Of a stretch of DNA of 22,835 bases, positions 1 through 18,908 are shown in pieces; within the stretch, counting starts at the first letter, position 1, and the number at the start of each line of letters is the position of its first letter. Source of the stretch: a virus; IMG/VR virus record IMGVR_UViG_3300025137_004281, positions 1-22,835 of that record. The stretch is one strand, 5' to 3'. Under the pieces are notes generated by a model, which was not told the origin of the DNA, ran no database searches, and was given only the letters and a program-made list of their open reading frames with translations. Both the position numbers and the translations under genes were made by a program.

Positions 1-658
1 CAACCACACCAGTGTTATCTGCTTTAACTTGATATGAAGGATCTCCTACAGCAACCCTAATTGTTTCGATTGCCATGTTAGGATATATGTTCTCACCAAT
101 CTTCATCAATAGTGGCACTCGTCTTACAACACCATCTATTTCTGGTGCTGTGTTAATAACACCTACACCTGCTGCACATTGACTTAAAAATAATTCTGGA
201 CCAACCATACCAGGCCACTCATATAAAAAGTTAAGAGGATTGCCTATCTTTGCAACACCTCTTGGTACTGCATTACTAGTTCTCTTTTGTGTCGTACCTA
301 CTTGAGCAATAACTGTGCCGTAACCTAATGCTTCACAGAAATATTCATCATGACCAAATCTATCAGGTTCACTAAACAATATAGGCATGACTATGATACC
401 TGTTTGTGCTTGTCGTAAATCTACAATCAAATCTGCTAGTACGTCTCTAGGCCATGGCCATTGACCATACTTCTCGATTGCTTCTTCGTCTATTGTTATG
501 ATTGTGATGTCTTGGGAAGGTGTGACTTCTTCGTTTGCAAGAAGATAGTCAAATGATTTTAAGCGTAGTGTTTCTTTGAATCCAGGATCCTGTAATCCAA
601 TATATGTCAACAATACCAAAGTAATAAAGGCAGTTGACCAATGGGTCAAATACTTCAT
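1..658 (-). CDS. CHASE2-domain protein, C-terminus outside window
   Basis: An open frame runs from an ATG at 656-658 to the window edge without a stop, giving about 219 residues. Residues 9-22 form a hydrophobic N-terminal segment (signal anchor or first membrane helix). The rest matches the extracytoplasmic CHASE2 sensory domain: an ITIIT-IDEEAI block near residues 51-61, the hallmark GQWPWPRD at 65-72, a later G-V-INTAPEIDGVVRRVP block and then MAIETIRVAVG. In bacteria CHASE2 usually sits ahead of three membrane helices and an output domain (adenylate cyclase, histidine kinase or diguanylate cyclase); here that part is not in view. The gene starts 8 bases after the second curlin-like gene and is the last visible member of the curli-type operon. 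No clear ribosome-binding site is seen. The CHASE2 call is strong; output activity is unknown. Confidence 0.85.
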   Translation of the reverse strand, partial: MKYLTHWSTAFITLVLLTYIGLQDPGFKETLRLKSFDYLLANEEVTPSQDITIITIDEEAIEKYGQWPWPRDVLADLIVDLRQAQTGIIVMPILFSEPDRFGHDEYFCEALGYGTVIAQVGTTQKRTSNAVPRGVAKIGNPLNFLYEWPGMVGPELFLSQCAAGVGVINTAPEIDGVVRRVPLLMKIGENIYPNMAIETIRVAVGDPSYQVKADNTGVV

Positions 659-666
659 ATTACTAT

Positions 667-1041
667 TTAGTTCTGATTAACTGTTAGAGTACAAAATGAA
701 TGACCACACCATAGTGTGTTCGAATAAGATTTGTTATTACCTGTTTGATTGAAATACATTGATGAGTTATTACTTGTTCTACCATCTACATTTACATCAA
801 GGCTATTACCGTCACCTATTTGATTTATAACAAGAATACCGCCATCCATACTCACTATATCAAAATCAATGACATTATTCTCGCCATCTTGTGTTATATC
901 TAAACTACCACCATCTGTTTGATCATCTACTGTTAATGTCAAATCATTTGCTCTAACTGGACTAGTCACGGCTGATAACGTAAGTAAGAACGCCATTAGA
1001 AACAACAAAAGGAGATTTTCTTTTAATATCTTTACGATCAT
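667..1041 (-). CDS. short curlin-like secreted protein
   Basis: A 124-aa protein with an N-terminal hydrophobic stretch and likely signal peptide (about residues 8-31, cleavage after VRA). The mature part carries degenerate curlin-type repeats of the strand-turn-strand pattern Q-x-G-x-x-N: LDITQDGENN, LVINQIGDGN, MYFNQTGNN and a final LTVNQN. Two cysteines near the C-terminus (LWCGHSFC) could form a disulfide. It has only about three to four repeats, fewer than CsgA (five longer ones), so it may be a nucleator or minor subunit by analogy with CsgB; that is inference. It lies in the same operon as csgF and csgG, downstream of the FecR and conserved small genes. An AAAGGA ribosome-binding site lies about 12 bases before ATG. 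Confidence 0.7.
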   Translation of the reverse strand: MIVKILKENLLLLFLMAFLLTLSAVTSPVRANDLTLTVDDQTDGGSLDITQDGENNVIDFDIVSMDGGILVINQIGDGNSLDVNVDGRTSNNSSMYFNQTGNNKSYSNTLWCGHSFCTLTVNQN

Positions 1042-1076: not shown

Positions 1077-1433
1077 TTAGGTGTTCTTAGGTCTTTGGCT
1101 ATTGGGTTCTGTTTCTTCATTTTTTTCTTTTGTTTTCTTTTTCATTGCATTGATATAACTTCTATATACAGCAGCCTCTGCTGTTTTCCCCATAACTCTT
1201 GCTCTTTGTTCCATTGCAATTGCAGCTTGTATCTTATGTGCATGTGCTTTACCAGAATTTTTAATCTTGTTTACACTTGCTTTTGCTGTTGCAACATCTT
1301 TAAACCCTAGACCTTGTATTGTGCCTTTAGGGTTTTCGTCTGTGTACAAATCACTATGTTTATCTGAACCTGCAGGTTGACCTTTCTTTCTAGGTACTCT
1401 TTTTGCTTCAGTAAACTCTTTAAATGATTTCAT
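1077..1433 (-). CDS. conserved marine T4-like phage protein, basic and helical
   Basis: 118 aa, basic, with no signal peptide or membrane segment. It starts MKSFKEFTEA, a beginning I recognise from many marine T4-like phage proteins, and has a central block (GLGFKDVATAKASVNKI, then AHAHKIQAAIAMEQRAR) predicted to be helical, followed by a lysine-rich tail KKKTKEK. The family is common in cyanophages and related phages; its function is unknown to me. The start overlaps the FecR gene stop as ATGA (1430-1433), implying translational coupling. It is odd to find a cytoplasmic-looking phage core protein in the middle of an otherwise secreted gene set. Confidence 0.8.
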   Translation of the reverse strand: MKSFKEFTEAKRVPRKKGQPAGSDKHSDLYTDENPKGTIQGLGFKDVATAKASVNKIKNSGKAHAHKIQAAIAMEQRARVMGKTAEAAVYRSYINAMKKKTKEKNEETEPNSQRPKNT

Positions 1434-2557
1434 TGTATTTGTAATATATTAATTTCGTTTTCTTGACCTAATAGTTCGAAATCATACATTTCAAACTCAC
1501 CTTGTATAATATTTAGTATATATCCATACTCTTTATCTAATCTTAATTCAATATATGCACCAGAGGCGTCTTCTCGTATCCATACCCATTGTGGATCTTC
1601 ATCTAAGATAATGACACCAGTCTCAGCATTTTTACCTAAGAATATACCATCAGTTGATTGTTGTTTATCAAACTCGTTTCTCATTTGTTTTGCAAGTTCT
1701 TCATTGATCTGATCAAGTATATCTGCCAAGAAATTTTGTTGTAAAAAATCTATATCTAAACCTGTTACATATAAATCTTCTTCTTCCTCTAAGTAGTCAA
1801 CTTCTAAATCATCAAATTGTAAAAAGTCTAGGTCTAATGCGTCTGCAACTTCTTTTAATTTATCTTCATAGTTTTCTTCTTCTAGTTTTTCTGGTTTTGC
1901 AACAATCAACATGTTATTAATCATGTCTAATTCTAAATCTAATTTTACAGGTGGTGATGGTGGATTGACTGGTGAGTTTACTTGTGTTGCTTGAAATGCT
2001 TGATTAAGTATAATTTGACCTGCGTCTGTTTCTACACTAATCTCACCAACTAAACAATTACCTGCTACATCACATGATGGTAATAATATAATTGTACTGC
2101 CACCTAGTTCATCTATTGTCATTGTAAAGTCTGTACCACGAACACCTATGGTTGCTGTAGGTGTTGTTATCTTTATATCTTGTCTTGAATTTTTTGCAAT
2201 TTGTCCTGAGGCATATCTTATAGTACCAAGTTTTGCTTTGAGTGAAAGTTTACCTGTTTTGGTATTAGGGTCATAAACAAATTCATCTATGACAAGTTTA
2301 CTGTGTTGGGTAACATCTACTCTAGTATCATCAAGAAATAATATACCAACTTTACCATTGCCTGTTTTTACTGTATCAAATTGTTCTATTGATGTTTCTT
2401 CTTCTAAAAGAATATTTGTGTTGCCGTCTTTACGATCAACAACACCGTTGCCTTCTATCTGGTCAACGTTTCCTATGCTGGCCCAAGAAGGACCAGCATA
2501 AAATAATATTAATATTATTGTTGTCCACTTAGTCAGTTTGCGATATGTCAATATCAT
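1430..2557 (-). CDS. secreted FecR-domain protein
   Basis: About 375 aa from the ATG at 2555-2557. The frame is open further upstream to TTG/GTG codons, but the ATG gives a clean 26-residue signal peptide ending PSWA. Residues about 28-150 form a FecR-type domain: repeated short strands, DTVKTGNGKVGILFLDDTRV, TGKLSLKAKLGTIRY and the characteristic TPTATIGVRGTDF. A proline-rich linker (VNPPSPPVK) follows, then a very acidic region around residues 215-270 and a C-terminal beta-type segment. Classical FecR has an N-terminal anti-sigma part and an inner-membrane helix; neither is present, so this is a stand-alone periplasmic or exported FecR domain. It overlaps the end of the 226-aa curlin-like gene by 29 bases and the next gene by ATGA. 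In bacteria such FecR proteins often neighbour CHASE2 proteins, as here. Confidence 0.88.
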   Translation of the reverse strand: MILTYRKLTKWTTIILILFYAGPSWASIGNVDQIEGNGVVDRKDGNTNILLEEETSIEQFDTVKTGNGKVGILFLDDTRVDVTQHSKLVIDEFVYDPNTKTGKLSLKAKLGTIRYASGQIAKNSRQDIKITTPTATIGVRGTDFTMTIDELGGSTIILLPSCDVAGNCLVGEISVETDAGQIILNQAFQATQVNSPVNPPSPPVKLDLELDMINNMLIVAKPEKLEEENYEDKLKEVADALDLDFLQFDDLEVDYLEEEEDLYVTGLDIDFLQQNFLADILDQINEELAKQMRNEFDKQQSTDGIFLGKNAETGVIILDEDPQWVWIREDASGAYIELRLDKEYGYILNIIQGEFEMYDFELLGQENEINILQIQ

Positions 2558-3209
2558 GGTTGTCACCAACAGTTGTCAAGTTTATTATGTTATCATAAAC
2601 ACCACTTTGTGTGATATCTACGTCTGCGATTGAACCAGTATGGCTGTGAACTAAGGTGTGTCCGTTTACATCACCATTACCATTTATGTCAATTAAATAA
2701 TTATTTGTATCACCGTTTACAGTTAAAGTTAAGATAGCTGAAGTACCATCAATAGTGGCAGCAACAACGTTGCTATCACTTCCTGAGGCACCTGTTATAC
2801 TTACAGTAGCATTTGCAGCGTCAGCAGTCTCACCAATATCAATATCTATATCGTTACTACTACCTGCCCATACAATGGACGCTGTAGCAGTAGCACATGA
2901 GGAACCTGTCCCTGCGCTATCACAATTGAAATCAATATCGTTTGAGTTACCAGTCACATTAAATGTTCCTGTAAAACTTGCACCGTTTACGTCAAACTTT
3001 AAAACGTTACTATTACCAACTTGATCAATGTCGATAGTGGTAGTTGCACCAATCACGCTTGAAGCGGTTGTACTATTACCAACAGTATTGTTTTGTCCGT
3101 CTTGGGTAATGTCGAGGTCTAACGTAGCACCTGATTGTGTCACATAGATATCATTTGCCATTACCGGTAAGGTAAACAATATTAACAATGCGATTATTTT
3201 AGCGTACAT
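2529..3209 (-). CDS. curlin-like repeat protein, main secreted subunit candidate
   Basis: 226 aa. The signal peptide is residues 1-18 (cleavage after VMA). The mature chain is built of roughly nine degenerate strand-turn-strand repeats of 20-26 residues with the pattern hydrophobic-x-x-x-x-x-G-x-x-N, for example ITQDGQNN, IDQVGNSN, FNVTGNSND, VNGDTNN and ITQSGVYDN. This resembles the curlin repeats of CsgA/CsgB, but many Gln/Asn positions are replaced by Asp and Thr and the protein is strongly acidic. Two cysteines near the middle (NCDSAGTGSSC) are unusual for curlins. The ribosome-binding site is AGAGGAG, about 7 bases before ATG. It lies 4 bases after csgG, as expected for a substrate of that channel. 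An alternative is a non-amyloid beta-solenoid, but the context favours curlin. Confidence 0.8.
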   Translation of the reverse strand: MYAKIIALLILFTLPVMANDIYVTQSGATLDLDITQDGQNNTVGNSTTASSVIGATTTIDIDQVGNSNVLKFDVNGASFTGTFNVTGNSNDIDFNCDSAGTGSSCATATASIVWAGSSNDIDIDIGETADAANATVSITGASGSDSNVVAATIDGTSAILTLTVNGDTNNYLIDINGNGDVNGHTLVHSHTGSIADVDITQSGVYDNIINLTTVGDNHDIDISQTD

Positions 3210-3213
3210 TTTG

Positions 3214-4041
3214 TTACTCCTCTATTTTAAATTGCCATAATTCCTTTTCAATACCTTCATGTATCATATTAAAGATAGCATGTTCTATTGTAGTTCTTAT
3301 GGCGTAGTTAACAGGCTCATTAGTTGCGACACCTGTTTCGATTTCAAGGGCCTTCGTACTCATGTCAAGGAACCTGAATACATCACCACCACTTGAATAT
3401 GACGCTATCGTTTTCGTTGCTGATACTGTCATTAGGATTTCTCCTGTTTGTACTGCAACTATACGAAGCGAAACTGTTACTTGGTCTGTACGATATTGTT
3501 CATTTACACCTAATCCAAAATATCTTGCACCAACACCACCAGATGTAATATTGGAATCATATCCTACAATACCACCCTCTATAATAAGTCCTGCAAACTT
3601 TAGAGGTTTTAATTGATTTTTTACATCACTTTCTCCATCATATAATTCTCTTGTTGATCTGATTAATTGTCTTTCTTTAATAATCGAATCCAAACCTTGT
3701 CTTTCTAAAACTATAAACCATGGATTATAACCACCTACTGCTTTCAAAGCATTGATAACCCAAACTTCAGCACCTTGTGTTACTGCTGTTGATAACTGAC
3801 TAAATTTTTGACTTGGTTTTCTTTGACCTGTTCTATCAGGAAAGTTATAAACTGCAACAGTAATTTGTGCTTGTCCTAGTTCAGGTATTTTCTCTAATCT
3901 TTTCATGGTATCTGTTTCCATGGTGTATGGTGTGTCACCTTGGTAGAAACCATTTTCATTAAGTCCTTTGTTTGAAGCACAGCCACCCAGCATACACATT
4001 AAGGCCATCGCAATGGCGATTTGTGGTATTCCTAATTCCAT
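3214..4041 (-). CDS. csgG: CsgG-like curli secretion channel lipoprotein
   Basis: 275 aa, close to the 277 aa of E. coli CsgG. The N-terminus is a lipoprotein signal with lipobox LGGC (Cys21), which would place it in the outer membrane. Family signatures are visible along the chain: QITVAVYNFPDRTGQRKPS, WFIVLERQGLDSIIKERQLI, LIIEGGIVGYDSN, GGVGARYFGLG, RIVAVQTGEIL and the late ALEIETGVATNEPVNYAIR. CsgG forms a nonameric beta-barrel pore that lets unfolded curlin subunits cross the outer membrane. The start codon is one base past the csgF stop. There is no clear Shine-Dalgarno motif, so translation is probably coupled to csgF. No disabling change is visible. Confidence 0.96.
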   Translation of the reverse strand: MELGIPQIAIAMALMCMLGGCASNKGLNENGFYQGDTPYTMETDTMKRLEKIPELGQAQITVAVYNFPDRTGQRKPSQKFSQLSTAVTQGAEVWVINALKAVGGYNPWFIVLERQGLDSIIKERQLIRSTRELYDGESDVKNQLKPLKFAGLIIEGGIVGYDSNITSGGVGARYFGLGVNEQYRTDQVTVSLRIVAVQTGEILMTVSATKTIASYSSGGDVFRFLDMSTKALEIETGVATNEPVNYAIRTTIEHAIFNMIHEGIEKELWQFKIEE

Positions 4042-4042
4042 A

Positions 4043-4513
4043 TTAAAACTTAAAGTCGCCTACAGGTACTGACATTACTGTCGTTGAACCATCTGGTGAT
4101 GTAATTGTTAATGTGATTATTTCTGTGGTTGCGTCTTTAACCCAGTAGATTGTAGAACCTTCTACTTCCGCTGTACCACTTGATGGACATGTACCAGAAC
4201 ATTCTGTCCCGAACATATTATCTACTAACTGTTTTGATAAATTAGCATAAATTCTACTCTCTACGTTTTTAATAAACTTATTGATTGTAGTATTGTTTTC
4301 TAAACGAGCCGCTGCAGCTGCCGCTGACTTAGCGTCATCTGATACGTTCTTCTCTCTACTATATCTTAATTGTTCAAGTGACAGTACATGTGTACTGTAT
4401 CCACTTCCTGAAAAAGAAGGATTTTTAAAATCGTGTGTTAATTCGCTTGCGATACTAGGTGTCGAATACACATAAAATAATATTCCTAGCACCAAAATTT
4501 TTAGTGCTTTCAT
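4043..4513 (-). CDS. csgF: CsgF-like curli assembly factor
   Basis: 156 aa (E. coli CsgF is 138). The signal peptide is residues 1-22 (PSIAS). The mature N-terminus has the diagnostic HDFKNPSFSGSGYSTHVLSLEQ, matching the CsgF segment that inserts into the CsgG pore and forms a second constriction. The C-terminus ITLTITSPDGSTTVMSVPVGDF matches the CsgF tail. An alanine-rich stretch (KSAAAAAARLE) and a cysteine pair (TECSGTC) are insertions relative to the E. coli protein. CsgF couples secretion to surface nucleation. It is the first gene of the operon. A TATAAATA box ends 5 bases before its ATG, and no ribosome-binding site is seen. Confidence 0.92.
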   Translation of the reverse strand: MKALKILVLGILFYVYSTPSIASELTHDFKNPSFSGSGYSTHVLSLEQLRYSREKNVSDDAKSAAAAAARLENNTTINKFIKNVESRIYANLSKQLVDNMFGTECSGTCPSSGTAEVEGSTIYWVKDATTEIITLTITSPDGSTTVMSVPVGDFKF

Positions 4514-4526: not shown

Positions 4527-4605
4527 ATAACATGTAGTCTAATATTGCAACAGTAGTAAAAGTTAATAGTATAATTGTTCCTACTATTATGCCGTTAGTC
4601 TTCAT
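4522..4605 (-). CDS. 27-aa single-pass membrane peptide
   Basis: A small ORF starting at the ATG at 4603-4605 and ending in TAA at 4522-4524. After MKTNG it is an almost unbroken hydrophobic helix (GIIVGTIILLTF, then VAILDYMLL). It overlaps the end of the preceding 104-aa membrane protein gene by 11 bases and ends 8 bases before csgF. There is no family match I recognise and no clear ribosome-binding site, so translation would rely on coupling. Its stop codon lies inside the late-promoter-like box for csgF. Confidence 0.45.
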   Translation of the reverse strand: MKTNGIIVGTIILLTFTTVAILDYMLL

Positions 4606-4909
4606 TATTTGCAGGTAATTTTTCTGCATTTTTACGCTCTCTTGAGCCAATTCTTTTTTCATTTTCTCTCATTTCTAATACAGTATTAAGTTTTGATCTT
4701 AAACGTATCAAGTCATTATCTAGCATTCTAATTCTATCAATTAGCGCTATGGTAGTAATCTGTGCCTTATCTAATTTTTCAATTATTTGTCCTGTAACAT
4801 AATTGTAAATAAAGTAAATAAACCAACCCATGGCAATTGCCGCTACTGTGGCAAATCCATATTGATTTAACATTTCTACAATAGGTGATGTTACTTCAAC
4901 TTCTATCAT
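4595..4909 (-). CDS. small membrane protein with cytoplasmic coiled coil
   Basis: 104 aa: a short N-terminal polar stretch, one strong transmembrane helix (about residues 18-37, ATVAAIAMGWFIYFIYNYV), then a charged amphipathic, probably coiled-coil segment (ALIDRIRMLDNDLIRLRSKL) and a basic tail. It is clearly paralogous to the 93-aa protein at 5006-5287 (same MG-FIY helix and DRI-ML-ND-LI-L pattern). The layout resembles small holin-like or BhlA-type phage membrane proteins, but I cannot assign a function. The start overlaps the end of the 36-aa ORF (ATGATAG around 4907). Confidence 0.8.
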   Translation of the reverse strand: MIEVEVTSPIVEMLNQYGFATVAAIAMGWFIYFIYNYVTGQIIEKLDKAQITTIALIDRIRMLDNDLIRLRSKLNTVLEMRENEKRIGSRERKNAEKLPANNED

Positions 4910-5006
4910 CTTTATCTTTTTCTAATTTTGCTAATAATGTCATTACACCTAAACTAATAGGTAATGCTATTAACAAAAATAATATAGCATGTTCAATAGT
5001 CCACAT
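4896..5006 (-). CDS. 36-aa single-pass membrane microprotein
   Basis: A small ORF between the two paralogous membrane protein genes. ATG at 5004-5006 overlaps the upstream TAA stop by one base (TAATG), and its own TGA at 4896-4898 lies 9-11 bases inside the downstream gene. After MWTIEHA it has a hydrophobic helix (ILFLLIALPISLGVMTLL) and a charged tail (AKLEKDKDDRS), a typical single-pass topology. The tight stop/start overlaps on both sides support it as a real gene. The family is unknown. Confidence 0.65.
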   Translation of the reverse strand: MWTIEHAILFLLIALPISLGVMTLLAKLEKDKDDRS

Positions 5007-5287
5007 TAGTCTTTCCTTGCGTCCTCTTTACCATCTGATCTAGATATTCTATCTAAATCTGGTCTTAACTGTAAGGCACTTGATATTAGTATATCTAGTT
5101 TTATCATGTCGTGGTTCATTGTCTTAATACGATTGTCTAAAGCAGATATTAACATGGTAATTGTTGCAACTTGTCCTACAACACCCGAGAGTATGTATTT
5201 AAGGATGATGTAAATAAAAAGACCCATTACCATAGCAGCGGCAACGGGTAGTCCAAAATCAACTAGTATTGTAAAGAATAGATCCAT
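5006..5287 (-). CDS. small membrane protein, paralogue of its neighbour
   Basis: 93 aa: a hydrophobic N-terminal region (LVDFGLPVAAAMVMGLFIYII, about residues 9-29) followed by a cytoplasmic amphipathic segment (ISALDNRIKTMNHDMIKLD) and a charged tail. It is a tandem paralogue of the 104-aa protein at 4595-4909. It is the first gene after the gp32 hairpin. A TATAAATA box ends 4 bases before its ATG and no Shine-Dalgarno motif is present, the same arrangement as csgF. The function is unknown; holin-like or membrane-scaffold roles are possible. Confidence 0.8.
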   Translation of the reverse strand: MDLFFTILVDFGLPVAAAMVMGLFIYIILKYILSGVVGQVATITMLISALDNRIKTMNHDMIKLDILISSALQLRPDLDRISRSDGKEDARKD

Positions 5288-18518: not shown

Positions 18519-18908
18519 TTATCTCCCTATGTCTTTGATTGATGATCTTGGTATTACTTGATACGCCCCCTTATTATAAGCAGGTGCAACAGTAAACTTT
18601 TTACTTTCTTCTAGGCGCCAGTTGTGATTTGGTTTAGTACCACCTGACTTCTGGCGAGGACGATGGGATTCGAACCCACGACCTCCTGCGTGACAGGCAG
18701 GCGTTCTAACCGGCTGAACTACGCCCTCATTTCTTTGGTCATACCAATTAGGAATAACCTTGAAATTCTTTTTACTTATCTTTCTATCTGGATCAATGCC
18801 CAATGATTGAAGATATTTTCTCTGTTCTAGTTTGGCTTTAATCAAACTATCTGTTTGAGGTAATCTGTTTCTCTTTTTCTTCTTAAATGATGTATAAAAT
18901 ATTGCCAT
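18519..18908 (-). CDS. conserved-type phage ORF containing a tRNA gene
   Basis: A 129-codon open frame. Residues 1-60 (MAIFYTSFKKKKRNR, QRKYLQSLGIDPDRKIS) and the C-terminal part (KKFTVAPAYNKGAYQVI, then PRSSIKDIGR) look like a small protein family that I recognise from marine T4-like phages, especially the APAYNKGAYQVI tail. Codons 61-86 are simply the translation of the tRNA-Asp gene lying in the same direction. The frame stays open and in phase through it. Either an insertion-bearing protein is made, or the tRNA has split the gene and processing destroys the message. The ATG lies only 2-3 bases after the predicted promoter start. Confidence 0.5.
   Translation of the reverse strand: MAIFYTSFKKKKRNRLPQTDSLIKAKLEQRKYLQSLGIDPDRKISKKNFKVIPNWYDQRNEGVVQPVRTPACHAGGRGFESHRPRQKSGGTKPNHNWRLEESKKFTVAPAYNKGAYQVIPRSSIKDIGR
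18652..18728 (-). tRNA. tRNA-Asp (GUC), CCA encoded
   Basis: A full 77-base cloverleaf on the minus strand: acceptor GAGGGCG / CGTCCTC, D arm GTTC...GAAC with GG in the loop, anticodon arm CCTGC-CTGTCAC-GCAGG giving anticodon GTC, T arm GTGGG-TTCGAAT-CCCAT, discriminator G and encoded CCA. Anticodon and discriminator G fit Asp. Encoded CCA and its phage context suggest a functional gene. It lies within the 129-codon ORF, downstream of a good promoter. Confidence 0.97.

Follow-up and report, generated by a model that had tools for sequence, protein, structure and literature searches.

The window analysed here is a stretch of viral DNA of 22,835 bases, at one end of which a run of minus-strand curli genes leads up to a truncated sensor gene. 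Read towards that gene, the run opens with a pair of small membrane proteins, followed by CsgF, CsgG, curlin, FecR, a small ORF, another curlin and finally CHASE2; the main features are listed below by position.

2..658, minus strand: predicted CHASE2 class III nucleotidyl cyclase, N-terminal 219 aa (PF05226; full-length relatives are 611-683 aa long, with PF00211)
667..1041, minus strand: second curlin-like subunit, 124 aa, with a signal sequence and the C-terminus ...TLTVNQN (PF07012, E 0.0016)
1430..2569, minus strand: secreted FecR-domain protein, 379 aa, with a putative curlin-like C-terminal strand (GQENEINILQIQ; PF04773, E 4.1e-9)
2529..3209, minus strand: first curlin-like subunit, 226 aa, C-terminus ...GDNHDIDISQTD (PF07012, E 0.033, under the cut-off)
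3214..4041, minus strand: CsgG outer-membrane curli pore (PF03783, E 5e-52)
4043..4513, minus strand: CsgF curli assembly factor (PF10614, E 1.7e-11)
4595..4909, minus strand: small membrane protein, 104 aa, conserved upstream of csgF (phrog_18771, E 4e-37)
5006..5287, minus strand: small membrane protein, 93 aa, paralogue of the 4595..4909 product (phrog_18771, E 2e-39)

Both CsgG and CsgF lie above the Pfam cut-off, whereas the two curlin candidates fall below it. The product of 667..1041 comes just under the PF07012 cut-off and far below that of the NCBIfam CsgA model (E 5e-5), and shares the C-terminal motif; the HTVC008M gene in the position of 2529..3209 is annotated as curlin-associated. 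The two small membrane proteins occupy the place upstream of csgF that PMC9599517 calls a histidine kinase, yet neither Pfam nor NCBIfam finds a kinase domain in them. The 118 aa ORF at 1077-1433, between FecR and the second curlin, has a weak match to phrog_727; relatives carry either nothing or at least one unmatched ORF at this position. Elsewhere in the window a tRNA-Asp gene (anticodon gtc; 18652-18728, minus strand) lies inside ORF 18519-18908, so at least part of that ORF is probably miscalled.

The ORF at 2..658 starts with an ATG and is cut by the record's end after 219 aa. Since the record comprises only these 22,835 bases, the remainder of the gene lies outside it: the window encodes the membrane helix and most of CHASE2, some 390 C-terminal residues fall past the end, and everything said below of the cyclase half is read from relatives. 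The match of the fragment to Pfam CHASE2 (PF05226) is far beyond chance (E 1.9e-28; score 100 bits, the cut-off being 26.3), with residues 16-204 aligned to positions 3-141 of the 257 in the profile. PHROG 35576, a family of 681 positions with no assigned function, covers the whole fragment (1e-105). A first-pass annotation, made from the sequence alone, had placed a CHASE2 domain behind a membrane segment on the strength of three motifs (IDEEAI, GQWPWPRD and EIDGVVRRVP), and this is borne out. All three are present, their residues fall mostly in invariant or nearly invariant columns among 16 viral relatives with identities down to 39%, and a single N-terminal helix precedes the domain at residues 8-23 in the structural model of a close relative (L041).

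The same annotation had proposed to look for an output domain in the missing C-terminus and for homologues in other pelagimyophages, and relatives supply both. By tblastn the gene is found in two records of the Pelagibacter phage HTVC008M (82% identity over 219 aa) and in four OM43 phages (61%), annotated as adenylate/guanylate cyclase, and IMG/VR holds about 300 stretches that encode relatives. In full-length relatives Pfam places CHASE2 (PF05226) at about residues 15-320 and Guanylate_cyc (PF00211) at about 420-607, giving an architecture of one membrane helix, CHASE2, three further membrane helices and a nucleotidyl cyclase of class III. The L041 protein, from a 146 kb contig, was modelled with AlphaFold2 (pLDDT 86.6, pTM 0.66), and the model agrees with this arrangement: helices at 8-23, 307-327, 330-355 and 362-394, a mixed alpha/beta domain after the N-terminal helix and a cyclase fold last. 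Among solved class III adenylyl cyclases, its cyclase half resembles Pseudomonas aeruginosa CyaB (3r5g; TM 0.88 by target) and CyaC, and among the matches listed for the full model Foldseek gave class III cyclases, or fusions thereof, throughout. A sequence search for a solved CHASE2 structure found none.

The catalytic residues are intact in the relatives. Both metal-binding Asp residues, the purine-reading Lys and the catalytic Arg are present in all 102 full-length viral relatives; the transition-state Asn is found in 78, with a Ser in the other 24, which are Melnitz-like. Between the cyclase halves of L041 and L048, dN is about 0.06 against a dS of about 1, and dN is far below dS in each of the six pairs computed, although dS is often near saturation. 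Comparison with relatives thus indicates that this half is under purifying selection. The product is presumably cAMP, judging from the conserved Lys and from family membership; NCBIfam offers no equivalog for the cyclase. Phage-type genes with 58-67% identity also occur on three contigs binned with Flavobacteriaceae or Pirellulales (L144, L145 and L146). Misbinning of phage contigs is the probable explanation, and the three were excluded from the bacterial set.

The family has been seen before, although the first-pass annotation was aware of no phage-encoded CHASE2 proteins. The HTVC008M protein stands in GenBank as 'adenylate/guanylyl cyclase' (AGE60353), one viral entry in BFVD is named as a COG4252 sensor, and Wittmers et al. 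2022 (PMC9599517) describe, for both pelagiphage families, FecR, adenylate cyclase and 'histidine kinase' genes that accompany the curli genes, and report CsgE as missing from pelagiphages. The word "CHASE" does not occur in the text of that article. The pelagimyophage curli cluster had been described by Zaragoza-Solas 2020 (PMC7029224) and a lysis role proposed for it by Buchholz 2022 (PMC9004378), where OM43 phage infection produced no clumping in culture; the main texts of these two papers do not contain the word "cyclase". A literature search on CHASE2 and phages returned no paper that, judged by title, appears to concern this gene. The fragment belongs to an already known family of phage cyclases, one that the literature searched does not describe as CHASE2.

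The setting of the gene is conserved too. Viral loci that offer 6.5 kb or more of upstream sequence number 59; in 57 of them CsgF, CsgG and FecR stand in that order ahead of the CHASE2 gene (the exceptions are L107 and L109), and the order is kept even where the sensor is only 36-39% identical. The cassette in viral loci runs CsgF-CsgG-curlin-FecR-curlin-cyclase, with the cyclase last. Within the gene itself, the sensor and cyclase halves have been swapped between phages at the last membrane helix, a finding that is new here. L111 and L110 share 94% identity in the sensor and 43% in the cyclase, while L254 and L122 share 34% and 74%, respectively; identity switches at about residue 360-400, which is the last membrane helix. 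Quick trees with long branches were built for each half. In the sensor tree a well-supported branch (99) parts bacterial from phage sensors, with two contigs from SAR11 MAGs falling on the phage side; the cyclase tree groups the phages otherwise. The output is thus replaceable, yet in the set examined it is always an intact cyclase.

The neighbouring FecR gene offers a candidate link between this sensor and curli. In a structural model of the window protein, a domain like the signalling domain of PupR spans residues 62-212 (Z 15.1). The C-terminal part gives no clear structural match, but this region of the model is of low confidence, so the missing match is no evidence either way. The extreme C-terminus bears the motif [ILVM]x[ILVM]xQ in 100 of 102 phage FecRs and in 151 of 159 annotated curlins. 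The motif is found in none of 283 CsgF, CsgG and small membrane proteins, in one of 142 CHASE2 proteins and in none of 36 bacterial FecRs, several of whose ORFs are fragments. The Pfam curlin repeat does not match the isolated FecR tails, and a residue-scoring scan for curlin units, in which N and Q are fixed by construction so that the scores are only supportive, gave clear scores in part of the FecR set. From these comparisons the phage FecR appears to close with a short curlin-like strand that is missing from the 36 other FecRs, which is likewise new here.

FecR divergence follows the sensor half of the CHASE2 protein (r 0.89) more closely than the cyclase half (r 0.63), and with CsgG controlled for the partial correlations are 0.67 and 0.06. 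It correlates equally well with CsgG and with CsgF. As the cyclase half sits at the cassette edge, linkage accounts for the FecR/sensor correlation as well as contact does. Physical contact between FecR and CHASE2 may nonetheless occur; the co-variation is suggestive of it, if confounded by linkage.

A pairing of these two genes is also seen beyond phages. Nine of ten SAR11 loci have a FecR gene no more than four genes away from CHASE2, as do 24 of 67 loci from other bacteria; these are raw proportions, obtained with a profile that included three of the SAR11 FecRs counted. The outputs of bacterial CHASE2 relatives are cyclases in 55 of 63 cases and SpoIIE in four, the others being HD or kinase domains. 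Comparison across phages, SAR11 and other bacteria thus points to a recurrent FecR/CHASE2 pairing with differing outputs. In four alphaproteobacterial loci the FecR domain lies within a protein of 800-1,400 aa, mostly with cadherin or RTX-like repeats. The closest bacterial relative of the phage gene (L147, 41%) is in an operon with an adhesin, an ABC transporter and HlyD. More generally, cadherin or RTX adhesins, several with an internal FecR, were observed beside CHASE2 cyclases in five alphaproteobacterial loci (L161, L167, L204, L211 and L147), with HlyD or ABC exporter genes near some of them.

SAR11 bacteria are among the most abundant in the ocean, and their capacity to read cAMP bears directly on what the phage enzyme could do. 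The host sample comprised 117 genomes of the family that contains two genomes that each match all four SAR11 16S probes exactly. A single 16S probe recognised no SAR11 among small genomes, probably because few assemblies hold a 16S gene. The cNMP-binding domain PF00027 is found in six of the 117 genomes and has no match in 111, an absence that is statistical given that many of these are incomplete assemblies; its carriers are an FNR-like protein, long ABC-transporter-like proteins and a fragment. No class I cyclase occurs in the 117 genomes. Class III cyclases score above the family cut-off in two of them, both being CHASE2 cyclases on phage-like contigs, and one further weak class III match lies on an odd contig (G450). 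PF00027 has no match in HTVC008M, Melnitz-3 or the L041 phage. Cyclic-nucleotide-binding domains are thus rare in the sampled SAR11-family genomes and absent from three phage genomes, an observation new to this study. A host CHASE2 protein other than a cyclase is encoded in ten of the 117 genomes (about 9%); nine of these ten loci have FecR close by, and the output is SpoIIE in all three loci scanned. Among these SAR11-family loci (L260 to L269), L261 also has STAS-like, HATPase_c_2 and pilin-like genes nearby. The FecR/CHASE2-SpoIIE pair is apparently an envelope-sensing system of the host.

We are now able to propose a mechanism for the phage protein, building on a domain architecture, intact catalytic residues, purifying selection and a conserved gene order that are all shown by comparison with relatives. 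We lean, with slightly better than even confidence, towards a class III adenylyl cyclase of the CHASE2 type that stands last in a phage curli cassette and senses curli export via FecR. In an infected cell, the phage CsgG/CsgF pore and curlin subunits would be made, and the secreted FecR could join exported or growing curli through its curlin-like C-terminal strand. Curli-associated FecR would then contact the periplasmic CHASE2 domain of the inner-membrane cyclase, which might relay the state of curli export via its membrane helices to the dimeric cyclase and so switch cAMP production on or off. That curli are the signal for CHASE2 is suggested by the setting, and sensing of their state through FecR seems to us the best-supported mechanism. 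Weighing against this reading are the failure to find a cAMP receptor, the chance that linkage alone explains the FecR/sensor correlation, a FecR tail that is short and below Pfam detection, the lack of clumping in phage-infected OM43 cultures, and the position of the window's own cyclase half beyond the record. The first-pass annotation had likewise envisaged an envelope signal, such as curlin, being fed into host signalling. Its envelope half gains indirect support from the curli cluster and the curlin-tailed FecR neighbour; its other half, an input into existing host cAMP signalling, is not supported, given the scarcity of cAMP receptors and cyclases in the sampled SAR11-family genomes. With no cyclic-nucleotide-binding domain in the three phage genomes and in most of the SAR11-family genomes, a non-canonical receptor, encoded by phage or host, is the likeliest remaining option. 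It is possible, if doubtful, that SAR11 phages run a circuit of their own from curlin-tailed FecR through CHASE2 and cyclase to such a receptor, timing curli secretion or lysis.

The same scarcity of receptors would also fit a bacterial curli cassette that is kept for its pore or fibre and carries the cyclase as cargo, its cAMP being useless in SAR11. The position of the cyclase at the cassette edge agrees with such a history, as does the predominance of cyclases among bacterial CHASE2 relatives. We nevertheless think it unlikely that the enzyme is a passenger: its catalytic core is retained in every full-length copy, dN is far below dS, and where the cyclase half has changed it has been swapped for another intact cyclase, not lost. 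Alternatively, cAMP or a cyclic pyrimidine nucleotide might serve as an infection-stage alarm or exclusion signal, acting non-transcriptionally on a membrane effector that alters the envelope or blocks a second phage. The small membrane proteins would be candidates, since most loci have two conserved proteins of a single family ahead of csgF, and an envelope sensor on the cyclase together with the missing CRP-type receptor would suit this arrangement. The conserved Lys is, however, the usual reader of adenine, and the small proteins carry no effector domain recognised by Pfam or NCBIfam; we regard the idea as improbable.

There is little likelihood, in our estimation, that phage cAMP works through an existing host cAMP pathway, as the earlier annotation proposed. 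The cyclase is intact and six of the 117 SAR11-family genomes do encode a CRP/FNR-like or other cNMP-binding protein, but the remaining 111 lack PF00027, class I cyclases are missing throughout and both class III cyclases sit on phage-like contigs. Finally, the phage FecR or CHASE2 could interfere with the host FecR/CHASE2-SpoIIE system, the cyclase being secondary. Such host pairs, with their non-cyclase CHASE2 proteins, provide a conceivable target, but they are missing from most sampled genomes, and the conserved core of the phage cyclase also speaks against this explanation, which we consider highly improbable.

Sensing of curli export through FecR, the reading we prefer, has wider implications. 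Uses proposed for the curli cassette of SAR11 phages include sibling capture, a pore, lysis timing and exclusion, and the sensor cyclase would be a readable output of that cassette: detection of cAMP in infected cells would mark it as a signalling device. A predicted cAMP-making enzyme is odd in phages of a host that seems almost devoid of known cAMP-reading machinery, and the scarcity of known receptors in phage and host alike predicts either a novel receptor or a non-signalling use. Across systems, FecR and CHASE2 are joined to a cyclase (phages and many bacteria), a phosphatase (SAR11) or a kinase (Burkholderia). These varied outputs, together with fusions of FecR to adhesins or to a curlin-like tail, suggest a general monitoring of surface-polymer export.

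The nearest known system is the pelagiphage T8SS cluster itself (PMC9599517; HTVC008M AGE60353), which has the same gene, neighbours and phage group, the window being another member. The swapping of sensor and cyclase halves, the curlin-like end of FecR and the rarity of receptors for cAMP are seen here and were not found in the available part of PMC9599517. Sinorhizobium meliloti CyaD1 (PMC5498481) is likewise a CHASE2 cyclase, rendered constitutively active by removal of CHASE2, and the cAMP/Clr targets of that organism include a FecR gene. S. meliloti, however, reads cAMP through the CRP-like receptor Clr, with no curli operon involved, whereas no receptor is recognised in the phage or in most of the SAR11 genomes sampled. 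The Campylobacterota cluster of PMC9239204, as far as the accessible portion of that source goes, also combines FecR and a CHASE2-adenylate cyclase; it further includes a phosphodiesterase and a TPR protein, and no curli genes are described there. In a Burkholderia operon (PMC5192318) FecR, as a FecR/LysM protein, again lies next to a CHASE2 sensor, in a biofilm context. There the output is a histidine kinase encoded on a bacterial chromosome, whereas the phage pairs its sensor with a cyclase.
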